From a virus, in the IMG/VR virus record IMGVR_UViG_3300042691_017324, positions 1-36,314 of that record: a DNA stretch of 36,314 bases. One strand, given 5' to 3'. The position numbers were made by a program, and so were the translations under genes. Every line of letters begins with the position of its first letter. Position 1 is the stretch's first letter. Shown one piece after another: positions 13,527 to 29,990 of this stretch. Under the pieces are notes generated by a model that saw only the letters and a program-made list of their open reading frames with translations, was not told where the DNA came from and ran no database searches.

Positions 13527-13910
13527 ATGCTTAGAATAAAAACAAAATTAGATAAAAGCCAAATCGCTGGAATTGGAGTTTTCACTGACGAAGATATTCA
13601 TGAAGGACAAATTATATGGAGTATGAATAATCTTTCTGTCTTTAGAATAACTTCCGAAGATTATAAATCTCTTTCCGAAGAAGAAAAAAATTTTATAGAA
13701 GAAAAAGATTACTATTGGATCGACAGCGATGGAAGCTATATGATTCCATTAGATGACAGCAGATTTATAAATCATTCTGAAAGTCCAAATGTTATAGATA
13801 AAAATGATTATTTAACTATTGCAGCTAGAAATATTAAAAAAGGCGAAGAGTTAACTATGAATTATAGGACATTAGTTAGTGAAGAATATTGGAAACCTTA
13901 TTTTAAATGA
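13527..13910 (+). CDS. SET-domain protein (putative lysine methyltransferase)
   Basis: A 127-residue protein with the SET hallmarks: GIGVFTDEDIHEGQIIW (15-31), RFINHSESPNV (79-89, the RFINHS-x-x-PN motif that binds S-adenosylmethionine) and the closing GEELTMNY (106-113). SET enzymes methylate protein lysines and are mostly eukaryotic, but stand-alone ones occur in bacteria and large viruses. No pre- or post-SET zinc cysteines are present. The possible target is a host or phage protein. It overlaps the dCMP deaminase start by 4 bases. Confidence 0.87.
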   Translation: MLRIKTKLDKSQIAGIGVFTDEDIHEGQIIWSMNNLSVFRITSEDYKSLSEEEKNFIEEKDYYWIDSDGSYMIPLDDSRFINHSESPNVIDKNDYLTIAARNIKKGEELTMNYRTLVSEEYWKPYFK

Positions 13911-15260: not shown

Positions 15261-15395
15261 ATGTCAGCAGGTAAAGGCGATAAACCCAGAAATTGTTTTA
15301 GTAGTAAATATAAAAATAATTACGACGACATAAATTGGGGTGATAAAAATAAGACTTTAAAAAAGAAGAAAAATTCTAATAATAAAGTCAAATGA
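15261..15395 (+). CDS. Small phage protein, MSAGKGDKPR type
   Basis: A 44-residue basic protein beginning MSAGKGDKPRNCFS, then YKNNYDDINWG and a lysine-rich end. Short proteins with this opening recur in many phage genomes; their function is unknown. Start is 5 bases after the previous stop and the stop overlaps the cytochrome start as ATGA, which supports it being translated. Confidence 0.66.
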   Translation: MSAGKGDKPRNCFSSKYKNNYDDINWGDKNKTLKKKKNSNNKVK

Positions 15396-16750
15396 AGAAT
15401 CTTTCAATTATTTTTATCTCACTTCTTGTAGCTTTTACAGCTATAAGCATTAAAGCCAAAAGTCAATCTAAAGCTCAAACTAAGTTTCCAGACTTCGGCT
15501 TTATGGTTCCGCCCAGCGAAGTCACAAATGTTAATGAAGTTTTTAAACTAAGTCAGGATTACCCGAAGAGCCTTCCAAAGAACAAGCTTCCTAAATTTTA
15601 CAGCATAGATTATAAAACTAATTGGCGCGAATATCTACTTTCTGTACGAGATTACTGTTTTGAAGGAAATACAAATGTAGATTTTCGAGTTGAGAATAAT
15701 AAGGCTCGAAATTGGTATCACATGCCTTTCCAACATTATTCTGCAAATGGCCGAGAAGGGTTTCACGGATTAACCAAGGAAGCGCCAGTTAAGGCGCATC
15801 AACTCGCTATTTCGCAAGAATACGCCACATCTGGCGCGTGGGCAGTAGGCTTCTTTAATGACGTAGCTGGATATACAATTGGTCAAGTTTGGGCTGATCA
15901 TGAAAACCCAGATGTCACCCTTATGAAGGGAGGATTTAAACATGGTGCAGTATTGTTTAAGCTATTGTTTACTTCTATTCCAAAAGACGTAGCTGAAGCC
16001 ACAGTTCCATTTTTCCGCAACGGAATTTGGTGGGACGCTTATGCAACATATAATTTTAATAGTTCAGACCGTTCAAAAATTCAAGTTGTATTAACCCAAA
16101 TGGACATTATGGTTCGTGATGATAATGCTCCTAACGGTTGGGTATTTGGCAATTTCCAATATAATGGCGCAGTAAATAATCCTATTAAGTGGAATAATCT
16201 AGTTCCAGTAGGTTTGATGTGGGGCCAAGATCCTACAAATAATGTAGATTTCTCTAATCCATATCCAACAAACACGATTATTAATACAGCTTTGAAGGAA
16301 ACTATTATTAATCCTGATAGAAACGAGCTTCCTCCTACGCATCTTGGCTGGAATGGTCGTTTAAATGGCCCTCTTGATAACTCTATGAGTTCTTGTTATA
16401 GCTGCCATTCAACGGCTGAATATCCTCAAGGATCTCCTATCAGTCCATTGTTTGATCCAGTTCTTTCTAAGAAATATCCCCCCGGCAGCGATGGTTGGAT
16501 GCTTTGGTTTAGAAATCTAAAGTGCGCTCAGTCTTTTGATAAGTCAACTTACGCTAAACCTCATTATTCAACTGACTTCTGTTTACAAATGTCAGAAGCT
16601 CTTGAGAATTTCGTAAATTGGAAAGCTGCACAAGGCGGTCTTTATCGCAAGGATTATGATAAATCTTCAAATAATTTCCTTGAACTTCGAAATGGAGAGA
16701 TTAACCTTAGAGAAGGTAAGATCTACCCTGTAGATCGTCGAAATAAATGA
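15392..16750 (+). CDS. Secreted c-type cytochrome-like protein
   Basis: A 452-residue protein. The N-terminus is a signal peptide (lysine, then a hydrophobic core to about residue 22), so export to the periplasm is expected. A single covalent haem-binding motif C335-Y-S-C338-H339 sits in SMSSCYSCHSTAEYP. The long N-terminal part is beta-rich with many aromatic residues (NWYHMPFQHY, GIWWDAYATYNF) and resembles a bacterial secreted cytochrome family of unknown role. Haem attachment would depend on the host cytochrome c maturation system. A cytochrome is very unusual in a phage. It overlaps its neighbours by 4 bases on each side, so it is embedded in the phage transcription unit and not an assembly join. 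Confidence 0.82.
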   Translation: MKNLSIIFISLLVAFTAISIKAKSQSKAQTKFPDFGFMVPPSEVTNVNEVFKLSQDYPKSLPKNKLPKFYSIDYKTNWREYLLSVRDYCFEGNTNVDFRVENNKARNWYHMPFQHYSANGREGFHGLTKEAPVKAHQLAISQEYATSGAWAVGFFNDVAGYTIGQVWADHENPDVTLMKGGFKHGAVLFKLLFTSIPKDVAEATVPFFRNGIWWDAYATYNFNSSDRSKIQVVLTQMDIMVRDDNAPNGWVFGNFQYNGAVNNPIKWNNLVPVGLMWGQDPTNNVDFSNPYPTNTIINTALKETIINPDRNELPPTHLGWNGRLNGPLDNSMSSCYSCHSTAEYPQGSPISPLFDPVLSKKYPPGSDGWMLWFRNLKCAQSFDKSTYAKPHYSTDFCLQMSEALENFVNWKAAQGGLYRKDYDKSSNNFLELRNGEINLREGKIYPVDRRNK

Positions 16751-17557: not shown

Positions 17558-17582
17558 AAGCCGCCGAAAGGCGGCTTTTTTT
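17558..17582 (+). terminator. Intrinsic terminator after the tail-collar gene
   Basis: AAGCCGCC, GAAA tetraloop, GGCGGCTT followed by a run of T. A perfect 8-pair stem. It separates the collar gene from the lipoprotein-cyclase island. Confidence 0.93.
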
Positions 17583-17596
17583 GTGTAAATAAAGAT

Positions 17597-18556
17597 ATGA
17601 ATTTTAAAAAAATTTTTGCCGTATTTTGTTTATTTTTATTTACAGGATGCTTTTCTACAATAAAGCCAGCAAAACAAATTGACGACAATCAAAAAATTAT
17701 TGCCAAAGAAGAGAAGAAGGTAGACAACACTCTTGTAGAAATAGAAAAAAACGACAAAGGTAAGAAAATACAAACCTCTGGTCTTTCTATTGGTATTCAG
17801 CATTCTTTAAATCAAGTTACTAATGCTCCTGTACAAGTAGACACGGCGTTAAAATTGAATGAAAGAGTTATTTCTATTGTAGGTTCACCTCATATAGATG
17901 AAACAAAAAGAATTAAAGCTACAGTAGATTTATTAAATTCTGCTTTAGTTGAAGAGCGTAAGAAAGGCGAAGAACTTCTCGCTCAACGTGACGATTTAAT
18001 TAATAAACTTCAAAAAGAAAAATCAGAGCTTAATCAAAAATATGATGACCAACTCTGGCAATTAACCGACAAAGCTAAAGAAGTCGCCAAAGAAGCTGAC
18101 CAAAACAAAGCTGTATTAGATTCAATGAGCGGAATGTTCGGATTAAACGCCGTGTTTTGGGGCTTAAAGAAGTTTGTTGTTAGTGCATTAACTACAATAG
18201 TAGTATTTGTTATAGTATTTGTTCTTCTTCGTTTATTGGCTACGGTTCATCCCGCTGCCGCCGCCGCATTCTCAATATTTAACATGTTGGGATCTGCAAT
18301 AATATCTATTCTTAAAGCTCTTACTCCCAAAGCTTTTGAAATGTGTGATTTCGCAACAAAAGAAAAAGTTGATGAATTTAAATCTCCTCTTGTTAAAATT
18401 ATAGATGTTATTCAAGAACTAAAAGAAAAACAAAAAGAATCTCCTGATAGAGTATATCCATTAAATGAATTACTAAAACGTTTCGAGAAAGAAATGGATA
18501 GTGATGAAAAAGATTTAATAGATGATATATTAAGAGAACAAAAGTGGATCAAATAA
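17597..18556 (+). CDS. Coiled-coil lipoprotein with membrane segments
   Basis: A 319-residue protein. A short signal ends in FTG-C18, a lipobox with Phe at -3. A disordered, charged linker leads to a coiled coil (about 102-172, EERKKGEELLAQRDDLINKL). TM segment 194-215 and a hydrophobic Ala-rich stretch 219-240 follow, then a charged C-terminal region of about 80 residues. A lipid anchor plus a downstream membrane segment linked by a coiled coil recalls unimolecular spanins, which fuse inner and outer membranes at lysis, but the tail after the membrane segments is too long for a classic one. First gene of the island, and a scaffold or sensor role is equally possible. Confidence 0.75.
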   Translation: MNFKKIFAVFCLFLFTGCFSTIKPAKQIDDNQKIIAKEEKKVDNTLVEIEKNDKGKKIQTSGLSIGIQHSLNQVTNAPVQVDTALKLNERVISIVGSPHIDETKRIKATVDLLNSALVEERKKGEELLAQRDDLINKLQKEKSELNQKYDDQLWQLTDKAKEVAKEADQNKAVLDSMSGMFGLNAVFWGLKKFVVSALTTIVVFVIVFVLLRLLATVHPAAAAAFSIFNMLGSAIISILKALTPKAFEMCDFATKEKVDEFKSPLVKIIDVIQELKEKQKESPDRVYPLNELLKRFEKEMDSDEKDLIDDILREQKWIK

Positions 18557-18615
18557 CCGACAATATACCATAAAACACCGGATAACTTAAAAAATCTATT
18601 TTATTTATTTTAGTG

Positions 18616-18639
18616 TAATCAGTTATACGCAACTGATTA
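18616..18639. repeat. Perfect inverted repeat directly before the MscS-like start codon
   Basis: TAATCAGTT, six bases ATACGC, AACTGATTA: a perfect 9-base inverted repeat ending one base before the ATG at 18641, in an 84-base gap. No Shine-Dalgarno is present. It could be a protein operator or a hairpin that controls translation start. It has no T run, so it is not a terminator. Confidence 0.68.
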
Positions 18640-18640
18640 T

Positions 18641-19021
18641 ATGAACACAAACGACGTTAATATTATATCGCAACAAGCATTAGAATCAACTGGTCAAGAT
18701 TTGACTGGTAAATATGTTTGGTTATTTATTATTGGACTTATAGCGTTAATGTTTAAGTCTAGTATTGAAAAGTTTGCGGCAGCTTTGTTTATGTTTGTTG
18801 GAAATGATTATAAAGAAGACGATGTTGTTTATGTAGATGGTAAACCCGGAAGAATAGTAAGAGTAGGTCTTACAAAGACTGTTTTCTTTATATACGATGT
18901 GGTTGACGGAAAAGTTTTGGGCGGCAGCAAGTTAGTTGTCCAAAACGAAAGACTAGCCTCATTAAATATTGAAAAGCCTCTTGCCAACTTAGATCTTAGC
19001 AGATTTAAGAAACAAGATTAA
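18641..19021 (+). CDS. MscS-like mini-channel / small-conductance mechanosensitive channel domain
   Basis: A 126-residue protein. One membrane helix (about 23-40, KYVWLFIIGLIALMFKS) and an amphipathic second helix (41-54) precede a beta domain: YKEDDVVYVDGKPGRIVRVG (57-76), then GSKLVVQNERLASLNI (95-110), which matches the MscS beta-domain order (D-x-V-x-V-x-G, then I-V-P-N-S-x-L). MscS channels open on membrane tension; this is far shorter than E. coli MscS (286), with only the pore-lining region and the middle domain. Overlap with the cyclase gene is absent but the gap is one base, suggesting cotranslation. Confidence 0.77.
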   Translation: MNTNDVNIISQQALESTGQDLTGKYVWLFIIGLIALMFKSSIEKFAAALFMFVGNDYKEDDVVYVDGKPGRIVRVGLTKTVFFIYDVVDGKVLGGSKLVVQNERLASLNIEKPLANLDLSRFKKQD

Positions 19022-19022
19022 A

Positions 19023-20774
19023 ATGGCAATTAATATTTTCACTCACATACGACGCAATTTATATGATAATGTCTATAACTGCATAGTTAAAGACAAAGTA
19101 AATATAAATGAAAGAGATGAGGACACTGGAAATCCTCCTCTCATAGTTGCTGTATCGGAGAATAATAAAGAGATTGTTGAATTATTATTGAATCACGGCG
19201 CGGATGTTAATTGTAAAGATTGGACAAGTAAAAATACAGCACTTGATATAGCAGAGCAAAAAGGTTTTTTATCTATTGTCGATGTTCTTCAAAAGCGTGG
19301 TGCAAAATATGGCAGCGGAAGTAGCTTTCATTTGGCGGCTAAAAATGGCGACATAGTTTCAGTAGAAGAAATGCTGAATAAAGGCCATACTTTAAATGAA
19401 GTTGACGCTGCAAAAGGTTGGACCGCAATGCATTATGCAGTTCATTATGGACAAAAACATTTAGTTGAATATTTAATACTTAGAGGCGCTGATGTTAATT
19501 CTAAAGACTTCTTAGGTAAAAATAATCCAATAGATGTATTAGCTTTAGGCAATAGAGGAGAAATCGTAAGAATATTAACCAAATCTGGCGCAAAATCTTC
19601 TGGTGGTTCAAGCATTCATTTTTGTGCAGAAACTGGTGATTTTGAAGGTGTACAGAAATATTTTGACATTGATGGTCGTATAAACGGTAGAGACGAAAAG
19701 AATGGATGGATGCCTATCCATTATGCCGTTAACGCTAACGATATTGAGATGGTTGAATTCTTAATCTGTTTAGGAGCCAACGTTAATGGCGCGGATTTTA
19801 AAGGTGAAGTTGCGCCATTAGATTTAGCTTTTAAAACTGGTAATATTAAAATGCAAACACTGCTTCAATCAAAAGGGGCAGCTAGAAAGAAAAAAATAGA
19901 TAATGGAGGCGGCGGCAAAGACGTTACAATCCATATCAGTGAAGAATTTAAAAAACAAATGCAAGCTTATATTGATAAAAGAAATCAAGAAGAAGCTGTT
20001 TTAAAAAAGATACATGAAGAAGAAGTCTCAAAAGATCCAAAGAAAAAAGATAAAAAGACTATTAACTGGAAAGAATTTTTAAAAAGTAAAAATAAGCCTG
20101 TCGAAGAAAAGAAGGTCGAAGAAGTTAAGAAAATTGAAGCTCCAAAACCTCCTAAGAAAATAATAAATCAAGTTGCGGTGATTGATGCTGAAGTTAAATC
20201 TAGTCGTCTTGAATTGGATAAAATACAAGATGGCTATATTTTTTTCATGGACATAGTTGGATATAGTAAAAAAACTACTGACGAGCAAAGAAAATGTTTT
20301 AAAGATCTAGGCGAAATAGTTAAATCAACTATACAATTTAAAACAGCTAATGCTCTTGAAAAATTAATCGTTCTTCCAACAGGTGACGGAATGATTCTTG
20401 GATTCTTCACTTACCTTGAAGACGCTATCAATTGTGGCATCACTGTTGCAAAAGTAGTTAAAAATAGACCAGATTTAGAAATGAGAATGGGCATTCATTG
20501 CGGCGACGTTTGCCCACTAGAAGATATAAATGGTAATTTAAATATTAGCGGCGATGGAATTAATTACGCTCAAAGAGTAATGGATGCTGGAGAAACTAAT
20601 CATTTATTAGTTAGCTCTGACGTTATGGCTAAATATGACAGACCAAATTATGTATTAGTTGAAGATCTTGGCGATGTAATAGTCAAGCACGGAGTTATTA
20701 TGCGATTGTATAGTTTGTATTCATCTGATTTTGGAAATAAAAATTTTCCGAATTCAAGAGTAAAAAAAGTGTAA
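19023..20774 (+). CDS. Ankyrin-repeat / class III nucleotidyl cyclase fusion
   Basis: A 583-residue protein in three parts. Residues 12-288 hold about seven ankyrin repeats (for example NPPLIVAVSENNKEIVELLL, WTAMHYAVHYGQKHLVEYLI). Residues 290-395 are a charged Lys/Glu linker. Residues 403-568 are a class III adenylate/guanylate cyclase domain: metal-binding D410 (FFMDIVGYSK) and D455 (LPTGDGMILGF), GIHCGD at 490-495, and the transition-state N514-x3-R518 (GDGINYAQRV). At the purine-selecting position four residues before D455 is Leu rather than the Lys typical of adenylyl cyclases, so the nucleotide made cannot be predicted. The catalytic set looks intact. No kinase, receptor or cyclic-nucleotide-binding partner is adjacent. 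Confidence 0.88.
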   Translation: MAINIFTHIRRNLYDNVYNCIVKDKVNINERDEDTGNPPLIVAVSENNKEIVELLLNHGADVNCKDWTSKNTALDIAEQKGFLSIVDVLQKRGAKYGSGSSFHLAAKNGDIVSVEEMLNKGHTLNEVDAAKGWTAMHYAVHYGQKHLVEYLILRGADVNSKDFLGKNNPIDVLALGNRGEIVRILTKSGAKSSGGSSIHFCAETGDFEGVQKYFDIDGRINGRDEKNGWMPIHYAVNANDIEMVEFLICLGANVNGADFKGEVAPLDLAFKTGNIKMQTLLQSKGAARKKKIDNGGGGKDVTIHISEEFKKQMQAYIDKRNQEEAVLKKIHEEEVSKDPKKKDKKTINWKEFLKSKNKPVEEKKVEEVKKIEAPKPPKKIINQVAVIDAEVKSSRLELDKIQDGYIFFMDIVGYSKKTTDEQRKCFKDLGEIVKSTIQFKTANALEKLIVLPTGDGMILGFFTYLEDAINCGITVAKVVKNRPDLEMRMGIHCGDVCPLEDINGNLNISGDGINYAQRVMDAGETNHLLVSSDVMAKYDRPNYVLVEDLGDVIVKHGVIMRLYSLYSSDFGNKNFPNSRVKKV

Positions 20775-20790
20775 GTTAAAAGTATCTTTT

Positions 20791-21408
20791 ATGACAAACG
20801 TCGTTACAGAAATTTCAAATACGCTTAATTCTATAGGGAATTTTTTCACTATGGCAAACGCGACAATTGCAGCATTAATTATTTTTACCGGATACTTAAT
20901 AAGTTTCAGCAAGAAAATTAAACCATATATTTCAGTAAAAGATGATATTGCTTCATTAAAAGTAGACCTCGCTAAAATATCAAGTGAATTTAAAACAAAT
21001 GGCGGCAAAAGCTTAAAAGATCAAATAAACGATTTACAAACATCTACAAAAACCATTCTTTATAGACAAAGATGGATACTTGATAACAGAGAAGAGCCGA
21101 TATTTGAAACAGATGAACATGGAAATTTTACATGGGTAAACGATGCATTTGCAAGATTAACAGATAGACCGTTCAGAGATTTACAAAATAATAACTGGAT
21201 TAATTGTTTAAAAGAAGACACAAGGGAAGAAATCACTGTTAGTTGGAATGTAGCGATGGAAAATAAAAGAACTTTCGAGCATATATTATTTGTAGTTGAT
21301 AGTAAAAATAGAGTTTTTTCTACAAAATGCATTGCTTCTCGTCAAGAAGATGGAAAATATATAGGAAGTTTTACGAACGTAGAGAAAATCGTTGAAAAAA
21401 AATCTTGA
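20791..21408 (+). CDS. Membrane-anchored PAS-domain sensor
   Basis: A 205-residue protein: membrane helix about 22-40, a coiled-coil-like linker 50-92, and a PAS domain from about 98 to the end (EEPIFETDEHGNFTWVNDAF, TDRPFRDLQNNNWINCLKED, ending GKYIGSFTNVEKI). There is no kinase, cyclase or HTH output, so it must act through a partner. It starts 16 bases after the cyclase stop. Topology with PAS inside the cell is likely, since the loop after the helix is lysine-rich. Ligand unknown. Confidence 0.83.
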   Translation: MTNVVTEISNTLNSIGNFFTMANATIAALIIFTGYLISFSKKIKPYISVKDDIASLKVDLAKISSEFKTNGGKSLKDQINDLQTSTKTILYRQRWILDNREEPIFETDEHGNFTWVNDAFARLTDRPFRDLQNNNWINCLKEDTREEITVSWNVAMENKRTFEHILFVVDSKNRVFSTKCIASRQEDGKYIGSFTNVEKIVEKKS

Positions 21409-21432
21409 CTTCGTGAAAAATACATGTAATAT
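21405..21432 (+). promoter_or_regulatory. Sigma70-like promoter before the beta-barrel gene
   Basis: TTGACT (21405-21410), a 16-base spacer and TAATAT (21427-21432), starting inside the last codons of the PAS gene. Predicted start near 21439, two bases from the ATG at 21441, so the message would be nearly leaderless. Five of six bases match at -35. Confidence 0.65.
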
Positions 21433-21440
21433 GTAAGTGT

Positions 21441-22145
21441 ATGATTAAGTATATTAATATTATTATCGCAACCCTTATGGCTTCAGTCGCAGTTTTCGCT
21501 GCGGATACTGAATCACCTGTTAACGCCAGCATTAACGCTGGTTATAACAACCATTATATTGTGAATGGTTTGGCAAAAACTGGCGGACAAGGTTTCGCTG
21601 GTTTCAATATTGGATCGACATATTTTGGTGTCGATGGTTATGTCGGCGGCGTTATTCTTCCAGACGCTAATAACATTGATGAATCCCACTGGAATGTTGG
21701 TGTAGGCAAGGCTTTGAAGGTTACCGAGAAGTTCTCGCTTCGCGGAGATTTGCAAGTTCTTCGTCATCAAAGTTCAATCGTAGGAGGCCGCAATTCAATC
21801 GAAATAGCTCCAAAGATTGCTTTGGTAAATCCATATCTAACTCCATATATTCGCGGTTCTCATGATTTCAATCTAAAGCAATCAGGATATATTGTTGGCG
21901 TTGAACGTCCTACCGACGTATTTGGTTGGGTTACTGTCACCCCATCAGTTGAGTATGGCAAGTTCACTGATTATGATGTTGTGGCTGCTAAGATTGGCGT
22001 GTCACGCACCTTCTTCAATCATCTAACTCCTTATGCTGAAGTTGGCTGGTACGACAACAACTTCTCAGCTTCAAAGTACAAGTTCGCTTCTCAAGAGTTT
22101 AGCGGCGATATCGTCGCTACTGCTGGAGTTCGTTGGAACTTCTAA
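21441..22145 (+). CDS. Secreted outer-membrane beta-barrel-type protein
   Basis: A 234-residue protein. A Sec signal ends AVFA (residue 20) before ADTES. The mature protein is built of alternating amphipathic strands rich in Gly, Tyr and aromatic residues (YFGVDGYVGGVILP, LTPYIRGSHDFNLKQSGYIVGV) and ends GVRWNF, the terminal aromatic expected for outer-membrane insertion. Its own promoter lies just upstream and a terminator just after. Phage-encoded outer-membrane proteins can change the host surface, for example to block superinfection. Base composition is higher in GC than the neighbouring signalling genes by eye. Confidence 0.82.
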   Translation: MIKYINIIIATLMASVAVFAADTESPVNASINAGYNNHYIVNGLAKTGGQGFAGFNIGSTYFGVDGYVGGVILPDANNIDESHWNVGVGKALKVTEKFSLRGDLQVLRHQSSIVGGRNSIEIAPKIALVNPYLTPYIRGSHDFNLKQSGYIVGVERPTDVFGWVTVTPSVEYGKFTDYDVVAAKIGVSRTFFNHLTPYAEVGWYDNNFSASKYKFASQEFSGDIVATAGVRWNF

Positions 22146-22165
22146 AAAATAAATAAAACAAGTCA

Positions 22166-22194
22166 ACCGTCATCCGAAAGGGTGGCGGTTTTTT
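22166..22194 (+). terminator. Intrinsic terminator closing the signalling island
   Basis: ACCGTCATCC, GAAA tetraloop, GGGTGGCGGT (10 pairs with two G-U), then a run of T. It ends the beta-barrel transcript and sits just before the next promoter. Confidence 0.91.
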
Positions 22195-29307: not shown

Positions 29308-29584
29308 TATACAAAAAGAAATAGTTAAACTCTCTGAACAGTGGTACGAACTTATTAGTAGCAATCATCATAAAGATAAAGATTGCCATTGGTACATAGA
29401 AACGCGCTGGTCTTATGGCGAGCAACCTGAGTTTCGAGTGTTGCATCATGGCTATATTACTGATGACATAGAAATTGCCTGTGACTCTTATGATACGGCA
29501 CTAATGGAATTGCGAACTATTATTAAACGAGCTATTGAAAGAGAAAAAGAATTAGAAAAACTACCAAATTCTAATGTCTGGTAA
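29297..29584 (+). CDS. Hypothetical phage protein
   Basis: A 95-residue protein with a helical start and C-terminus and a beta middle (HWYIETRWSYGEQPEFRVLHH). No family recognised. Ends 11 bases into the pseudopilin gene. Confidence 0.6.
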   Translation: MTADIQKEIVKLSEQWYELISSNHHKDKDCHWYIETRWSYGEQPEFRVLHHGYITDDIEIACDSYDTALMELRTIIKRAIEREKELEKLPNSNVW

Positions 29585-29990
29585 ATCTAAAGGGTTTACT
29601 TTAATAGAAATAGTGTTGGCGACAGTGATATTATTATCATTGATCGCCGCGCTTGTTATTAACTTTGATTCTTTAAGAGGAGATCAATACAAAGAAGCGA
29701 AAGAGAATCTCAAAACATTTCTAATAAATAAACGTCATCAAGCCGCATATCATCAAAAAGAGCTTGAGCTATCTTTCTCTGAAGATTATACGATTAATTC
29801 AATTGAAAATCCTGACGAGCTTGCGGCGATAACTAACGATTTAAAAATAATAGAAACTTCCGCGACAAAAATCGTTTTTTTTCTTGACGGCACAATTGAA
29901 GAAAGCTATATTATCACCAGTTCTAATGATGGAAAAGTAACTAATACTTTTCGTATAAACGTCATTGGAAAAATAGACTACGATAAATAA
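29574..29990 (+). CDS. Type IV pilin/pseudopilin-like protein
   Basis: A 138-residue protein with a textbook prepilin leader: short basic MSGKSKG (1-7), then FTLIEIVLATVILLSLIAAL, with E12 at the fifth mature position and a 20-residue hydrophobic helix. Cleavage after G7 and N-methylation of F8 would need a host prepilin peptidase. The rest is a small alpha/beta domain as in GspH/PilE-type minor pseudopilins. In a phage this could jam or alter pili that serve as receptors. No other pilus gene is present. Confidence 0.82.
   Translation: MSGKSKGFTLIEIVLATVILLSLIAALVINFDSLRGDQYKEAKENLKTFLINKRHQAAYHQKELELSFSEDYTINSIENPDELAAITNDLKIIETSATKIVFFLDGTIEESYIITSSNDGKVTNTFRINVIGKIDYDK

Follow-up and report, generated by a model that had tools for sequence, protein, structure and literature searches.

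A mini-MscS gene and a class III nucleotidyl cyclase gene recur as a conserved pair in uncultured T4-like phages of lakes and oceans

Do the five same-strand genes that lie between two intrinsic terminators in the virus record IMGVR_UViG_3300042691_017324 belong together and, if not all of them, which do? The window, by which we mean the whole 36,314-nucleotide stretch analysed (a 36.3 kb virus contig record), carries between positions 17,583 and 22,194 genes for a lipoprotein (LIPO), a small protein resembling the MscS channel (mini-MscS), an ankyrin-repeat protein with a class III nucleotidyl cyclase domain (ANKCYC), a membrane protein with a PAS domain (PAS) and a putative outer-membrane barrel (OMP). 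A first reading of the sequence, hereafter the original prediction, took the five for one compact module. Comparison with related phages supports a real group of genes for signalling at the envelope but does not bear out one compact module, and we rule out the five-gene island as a single unit: in most other phages PAS and OMP are missing, and LIPO behaves as a gene of its own. What is conserved is a core of two genes, mini-MscS plus cyclase, whose carriers are uncultured T4-like phages of lakes and oceans and which usually stands beside other envelope genes.

A scan of IMG/VR with ANKCYC (19023-20774, + strand) returned relatives on 62 contigs, at 72-95% identity. When the genes of the window were mapped on these 62, LIPO and mini-MscS (18641-19021, + strand) were found upstream almost everywhere, PAS in one contig and OMP in three. 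For counting we took one locus per contig on 102 contigs, part of which had been fetched with ANKCYC or mini-MscS as the query, so that the counts describe conditional linkage and not frequency in phages. ANKCYC is present on 67 of the 102, and mini-MscS lies upstream in all 64 of those with enough upstream sequence (64/64), mostly with a near-zero gap; in the window, ANKCYC starts 1 bp after mini-MscS. Mini-MscS is present on 74 of the 102 contigs and, with five contig ends left out, 66 have a downstream cyclase and three, all marine, have none. In the readable freshwater contigs with mini-MscS a cyclase thus follows in every case (66/66), 58 with ANKCYC, six with both cyclase types and two with only the sensor cyclase described below. 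It is from the two counts, 64/64 and 66/66, that we take mini-MscS and cyclase to be the core. Cyclase homologues among unrelated neighbours, which the original prediction had named as evidence against itself, were looked for, and this attempt at refutation failed: no readable freshwater contig has the cyclase separated from mini-MscS, and many of the deep marine relatives keep the two together as well. Contig L074 is a mosaic in which LIPO is nearest to L021 and L233, mini-MscS to L021 and L012, and ANKCYC to L005 (93%), and these different nearest relatives indicate that the three genes recombine singly yet remain adjacent.

The association reaches well beyond the freshwater phages. G447, a 200 kb marine record, has a 64% mini-MscS relative beside an endolysin gene and also carries an ankyrin-cyclase, 29 kb from its mini-MscS, that is 30% identical to the ANKCYC of the window over 528 residues (E = 3e-68). 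Scanning with the G447 ankyrin-cyclase gave 41 marine loci, 23 of which have a diverged mini-MscS (33-44%) within ~9 kb of the cyclase; in L277 it lies directly 5' of the cyclase, arranged as in the window. We regard the tie between the two genes as strong but not absolute.

What might the cyclase make? ANKCYC consists of ankyrin repeats (residues ~20-290), a charged linker and, by Pfam and alignment, a class III nucleotidyl cyclase domain (~400-565); the Pfam matches are Ank_2 at 7e-36 and Guanylate_cyc at 6e-5, over the curated cut-off. The residues that define a class III nucleotidyl cyclase, two metal-binding aspartates (D410, D455) and a transition-state asparagine and arginine (N514, R518), are all present and are invariant in 46 aligned cyclases, from which we infer that ANKCYC probably makes a cyclic nucleotide. 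The base-pocket residues F408, L451, T453 and N507 are likewise identical in all 46. Leu451 and Asn507 stand where adenylate cyclases have their Lys/Asp (or Lys/Thr) adenine contacts, the Lys position having been assigned via an alignment with 3mr7, and this difference concerns the adenylate sub-type and not the class III fold family. By eye, related bacterial cyclases that form part of TPR-type proteins in Verrucomicrobiota show Leu/Asn at these positions too; being common to bacterial relatives, this pattern is a subfamily trait and by itself no clue to the product. The ratio of nonsynonymous to synonymous substitution rates is ~0.03-0.05 for both ANKCYC and mini-MscS, which points to strong purifying selection on both genes. 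Separately, a conserved gene of 70 amino acids with no family match is found at the stop codon of ANKCYC (L003, 11770-11979, and ~50 other contigs); the window lacks it and has PAS at that position instead.

The partner protein, 126 amino acids long, is predicted to consist of a single transmembrane helix, an amphipathic helix and an MscS beta-domain. By sequence the assignment is weak (Pfam MscS beta-domain, E = 0.022) and a profile search gave no PDB relative, the relation being found solely by fold comparison, in which the model resembles MscS and MSL10 (Foldseek probability 1.00, E = 1.4e-3; pLDDT of the model 63). The predicted model thus shares with the MscS channel family the fold of the pore helix and beta-domain, whereas the three transmembrane helices and C-terminal cage of E. 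coli MscS are not there: mini-MscS is without TM1 and TM2 and ends shortly after the beta-domain. In L271 (7591-8404) and L258 (7696-8512) we noticed two mini-MscS paralogues, divergently oriented, beside a gene that by eye is PhoH-like.

The genomic slot that holds the pair is itself variable. In the main clade the neighbourhood of LIPO includes the major capsid gene and a gene of the Mom family, and in L219, L227 and L234 LIPO is followed directly by Mom. Elsewhere the same slot holds other cargo, namely MscS-ANKCYC-(70-aa gene), MscS-ANKCYC-OMP2-SENS482-HD257 or MscS-OMP2-SENS482-HD257, and L098 and L104 read LIPO-MscS-OMP2-SENS482-HD with no ANKCYC. SENS482 is a sensor protein with two transmembrane helices whose cyclase domain is of the canonical adenylate-cyclase type (Pfam 1.7e-27), its best match in the PDB being CyaB of P. 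aeruginosa (7e-31). HD257 has a weak HD-domain match only and no PDB match, and is a candidate phosphodiesterase at most. These variants show that either of two very different cyclases, or both together, can accompany one and the same mini-MscS.

LIPO (17597-18556, + strand) is a frequent but independent neighbour of the pair. It is present on 87 of the 102 contigs and, among the 79 that are readable, 62 have the mini-MscS-cyclase pair and 17 have neither gene, which makes LIPO a gene of its own. Its lipobox, LFTGC, has a cysteine that is invariant in 21 aligned relatives, and the lipobox is followed by a long helical periplasmic part, a hydrophobic helix (193-211), a weaker second helix (221-239) and a conserved C-terminal region. 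We describe this layout as spanin-like, with a correspondingly predicted role. Like unimolecular spanins of the T1 gp11 type (PMC6139136), LIPO combines an N-terminal lipobox with an inner-membrane transmembrane helix and has no cysteine in the periplasmic part; unlike them, it is helical and not beta, is ~320 amino acids long and does not end with its transmembrane helix, some ~80-110 conserved residues following the main one. The structure model of LIPO (pTM 0.22) was too weak for a fold search. A good candidate for a short unimolecular spanin was seen in two marine loci (L283, 7476-7733; L288, 7892-8149), an 86-aa lipoprotein with a lipobox and a hydrophobic C-terminal stretch, encoded directly before kinase and response-regulator genes and upstream of the cyclase.

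Lysis genes are found near some of these loci. A holin gene (PHROG 2359, 5e-11) lies two to three genes after LIPO in five contigs; L005 and L057 have a 4HB-like membrane protein and a PHROG 2359 holin between MscS and ANKCYC; in L135 an endolysin gene adjoins the marine MscS; and L146 has a weak lysozyme match ~4-5 kb after LIPO. A search for endolysin (PF00959) in 16 records gave two sub-threshold matches only. The architecture of LIPO and these holin and endolysin neighbours lend some support to a role in envelope or lysis control, and to this extent lysis timing, which the original prediction had listed as an alternative, may stand, with the reservation that the neighbours are a minority pattern. 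In the contigs seen, a ~205-aa protein with transmembrane helices at both ends and a large periplasmic part precedes a holin-family gene (L145, 7969-8583; L005, 9060-9677); it could be an antiholin-like sensor.

Taking together the retention of the pair in distant phages, the conserved active site, the selection on both genes and the replacement of one cyclase by another, we propose that mini-MscS and cyclase form a two-gene phage second-messenger unit acting on the envelope, a proposal we hold tentatively and at somewhat less than an even chance. The cyclase would dimerise and make a cyclic nucleotide, and its ankyrin repeats would dock it to a target or sensor. An oligomer of mini-MscS would be the membrane partner; the signal would open or close it, or else it would relay membrane tension to the enzyme. 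The output, here we are more speculative, might be late control of the envelope (lysis timing or permeability) exerted with the spanin-like lipoprotein, holins, barrels and PAS or kinase sensors. A bolder version, in which the cyclic nucleotide, possibly not cyclic AMP (cAMP), gates or arms the mini-MscS pore and so provides a tunable clock or sensor for the breach of the envelope, we consider unlikely; if true, such a gated pore would be a form of lysis or permeability control unlike holin-antiholin systems. Twenty phage records, among them the window, itself a fragment, gave no match to the cyclic nucleotide-binding domain (CNBD; PF00027) above the curated cut-off, which makes a host receptor or a local, non-classical target plausible. 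Sub-threshold matches to this domain (142-aa open frames) were seen in L241 and L242, LIPO-carrying phages with no cyclase match.

We stress that several observations count against the two-gene unit. Of the 67 freshwater contigs with the cyclase, most belong to a single phage clade and many are near-copies, so that the independent contexts number perhaps five or six, the chief limitation of our counts, and the long marine records G469-G472 and G474 have the cyclase with no detectable mini-MscS. Mini-MscS has no known nucleotide-binding domain, and the AlphaFold models are modest in confidence (pLDDT 60-63). Most carriers of the pair, moreover, have no recognised holin or endolysin gene nearby.

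How do other explanations compare? The cyclase might serve to hijack the host, its cAMP (or cyclic GMP) acting on CRP-type regulators to shift host metabolism while mini-MscS guards against osmotic stress. Such a role would suit the canonical adenylate cyclase type of the replacement SENS482, the lack of a phage cyclic-nucleotide receptor over the cut-off in the records, the possibility that HD257, with its weak HD-domain match, is a phosphodiesterase, and the pairing of an adenylate cyclase with envelope genes in pelagiphage clusters (PMC9599517). We nonetheless think it rather unlikely, given that ANKCYC is without the Lys/Asp adenine contacts and that hijacking leaves the tie between cyclase and mini-MscS in every readable freshwater contig unexplained. 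Alternatively, MscS, cyclase, lipoprotein, PAS and barrel might be separate accessory genes gathered in one shared insertion slot. In favour of this, LIPO is found by itself or accompanied by different cargo, most contigs lack PAS and OMP, and some marine contigs have MscS with no adjacent cyclase. This account is hard to reconcile with the co-occurrence of MscS and cyclase in all readable freshwater contigs despite separate recombination, and in a distant phage even 29 kb apart, and we regard it as improbable.

Phage biology knows cyclic-nucleotide signalling chiefly as a defence of the host, one that phages evade. The pair could be imagined as a device for superinfection exclusion, in which the ankyrin cyclase senses a second phage and mini-MscS kills the cell or is held shut by the product, in the manner of Pycsar, CBASS or Panoptes. 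The layout is alike in principle, a nucleotide-messenger enzyme with a small protein of transmembrane helix and beta-domain (PMC12657218; PMC11224242), and in the main clade the cargo occupies a site of variable content bounded by LIPO and the Mom DNA-modification gene. In Pycsar (PycC with PycTM or PycTIR) a gene for a cyclase of class III fold likewise adjoins a membrane-protein gene, but the phage pair has no CNBD effector and is phage-borne, and F408, L451, T453 and N507 of ANKCYC differ from the pocket sets of BcPycC, EaPycC and AnPycC (PMC11224242). Panoptes (OptS/OptE; PMC12657218) and CBASS with Cap15 also place a second-messenger synthase beside a small membrane protein with transmembrane helices and a beta-domain; their synthase, however, is an mCpol or CD-NTase and not a class III cyclase, and their membrane protein is S-2TMbeta and not MscS. 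PADLOC and Pfam scans detected no CBASS or Panoptes synthase or effector, their output being confined to ankyrin-type matches and a single weak SAVED_TM match in the PAS protein, and the core pair has no S-2TMbeta, CARF, SAVED or CNBD domain. Pycsar, CBASS and Panoptes therefore share only a general layout with the pair, and a known defence system is ruled out by the negative PADLOC, Pfam and CNBD searches. Because strong conservation is also less typical of arms-race genes, we judge superinfection exclusion quite unlikely.

The nearest precedent is the adenylate cyclase of the curli clusters (type VIII secretion system) of pelagiphages and OM43 phages, in which a class III adenylate cyclase occurs with curli genes, FecR and a histidine kinase (PMC9599517). 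A lysis role for the curli pore has been proposed in PMC9004378, whose text does not contain the word cyclase. In the cultured phages HTVC008M and Melnitz (Kyanoviridae) a class III cyclase closes the CsgF-CsgG operon. These are again marine tailed phages in which an envelope-pore operon ends with a class III cyclase gene, and sensor kinases can be nearby, as they are in the marine loci L283 and L288. Their cyclase differs in that it resides in the membrane and has a long sensor region at its N-terminus (CHASE2-like by eye), and its partners are CsgF, CsgG and curlin, none of which was found in a Pfam scan of the window proteins or recognised among the listed neighbours. The pair itself is without a representative among cultured phages, and INPHARED yielded nothing related to mini-MscS or to the cyclase domain of ANKCYC. 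The original prediction named no described phage system with this gene set; the open-access full-text literature yielded no description of a phage mini-MscS/cyclase pair, whereas phage class III cyclases in envelope clusters were already known (PMC9599517).

Widespread uncultured phages of lakes and oceans thus appear to carry a cyclase of their own tied to a minimal protein of mechanosensitive type, a pair kept long enough for two cyclase lineages to be only ~30% identical. If functional, it would offer a directly testable case of a virus acting on the host envelope via a second messenger, and would give channel biophysics a minimal MscS to study. Two published puzzles also meet in it, the cyclases in the curli clusters of pelagiphages and the control of lysis in T4-like marine phages, and the curli-pore cyclase of HTVC008M and Melnitz provides a culturable system for testing phage cyclase function.

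As to the origin of the pair, the sole close cellular relative found is an ankyrin-cyclase on L064, a contig of a Verrucomicrobiales metagenome-assembled genome, 71% identical over its full length. It adjoins ligA on a contig of 65% GC that has no LIPO or MscS, and it falls outside the phage sequences on a long branch of a midpoint-rooted tree. An ankyrin-cyclase was found in one of 388 sampled Verrucomicrobiota genomes. LIPO had no match in 368 Verrucomicrobiota genomes, in a search that had no positive control, so that the empty result shows nothing. Capture of a whole host operon is not supported, the close bacterial relative (L064) being for the cyclase alone. The 'LPTGDG' class III cyclases of Verrucomicrobiota belong to the same catalytic-domain subfamily, with Leu/Asn at the base-pocket positions in the copies read, but are mostly on TPR-type and not ankyrin proteins. 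Prepilin-type N-methylation proteins are encoded in the window (29574-29990) and, two in a row, near the G447 ankyrin-cyclase (L251, 9417-11386); our guess is that these genes would fit a Verrucomicrobiota-like host.

Returning to the window, the original prediction of five same-strand genes between two good terminators is borne out by the open frames and a terminator scan. The upstream terminator (17558-17577) is bidirectional, reading also on the - strand, with eight pairs, six of them GC, and a T-tail (AAGCCGCC-GAAA-GGCGGCTT, then a T-run); the downstream one (22165-22190, + strand) has 11 pairs, six of them GC. The scan found 10 terminator-like sites, against 3.0 +/- 1.9 in shuffles. A shared promoter motif (AGTGTAAT and a longer form) showed no excess over chance. 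By Pfam, lipobox or predicted fold, the lipoprotein, MscS, cyclase and PAS calls are right or plausible, and the barrel is plausible. PAS (20791-21408, + strand) has one hydrophobic helix near its N-terminus, taken as a transmembrane helix, a coiled coil and a C-terminal PAS domain (PAS_4, 3e-8); the same gene is at the same place in L002 only (60% identity). OMP (21441-22145, + strand) has a signal peptide and a weak match to OMP_b-brl (0.006, under the Pfam cut-off), and close relatives (84-91%) lie near cyclases in L002, L003 and L004. Among marine loci, relatives of OMP are near the cyclases of L283, L284, L288 (~49-50%) and L279 (33%), PAS genes near those of L252, L253 and L278, and a PAS-histidine kinase or kinase, together with a response regulator, near those of L283 and L288. 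The accessory genes of the window therefore recur as neighbours, and PAS and OMP are recurrent but optional company of the cyclase.

Elsewhere the window includes a tail-collar gene and genes that we named by eye as UvsX-like, RNR, ThyX and glycosyltransferase, as well as one for a SET-domain-like protein (13527-13910, also by eye). The protein encoded at positions 15392-16750, which is secreted, contains a haem-type motif of the form CxxCH (CYSCH) and weakly matches cytochrome P460; it has close relatives in L057 (86%) and L149 (73%) and may be a phage-borne cytochrome.

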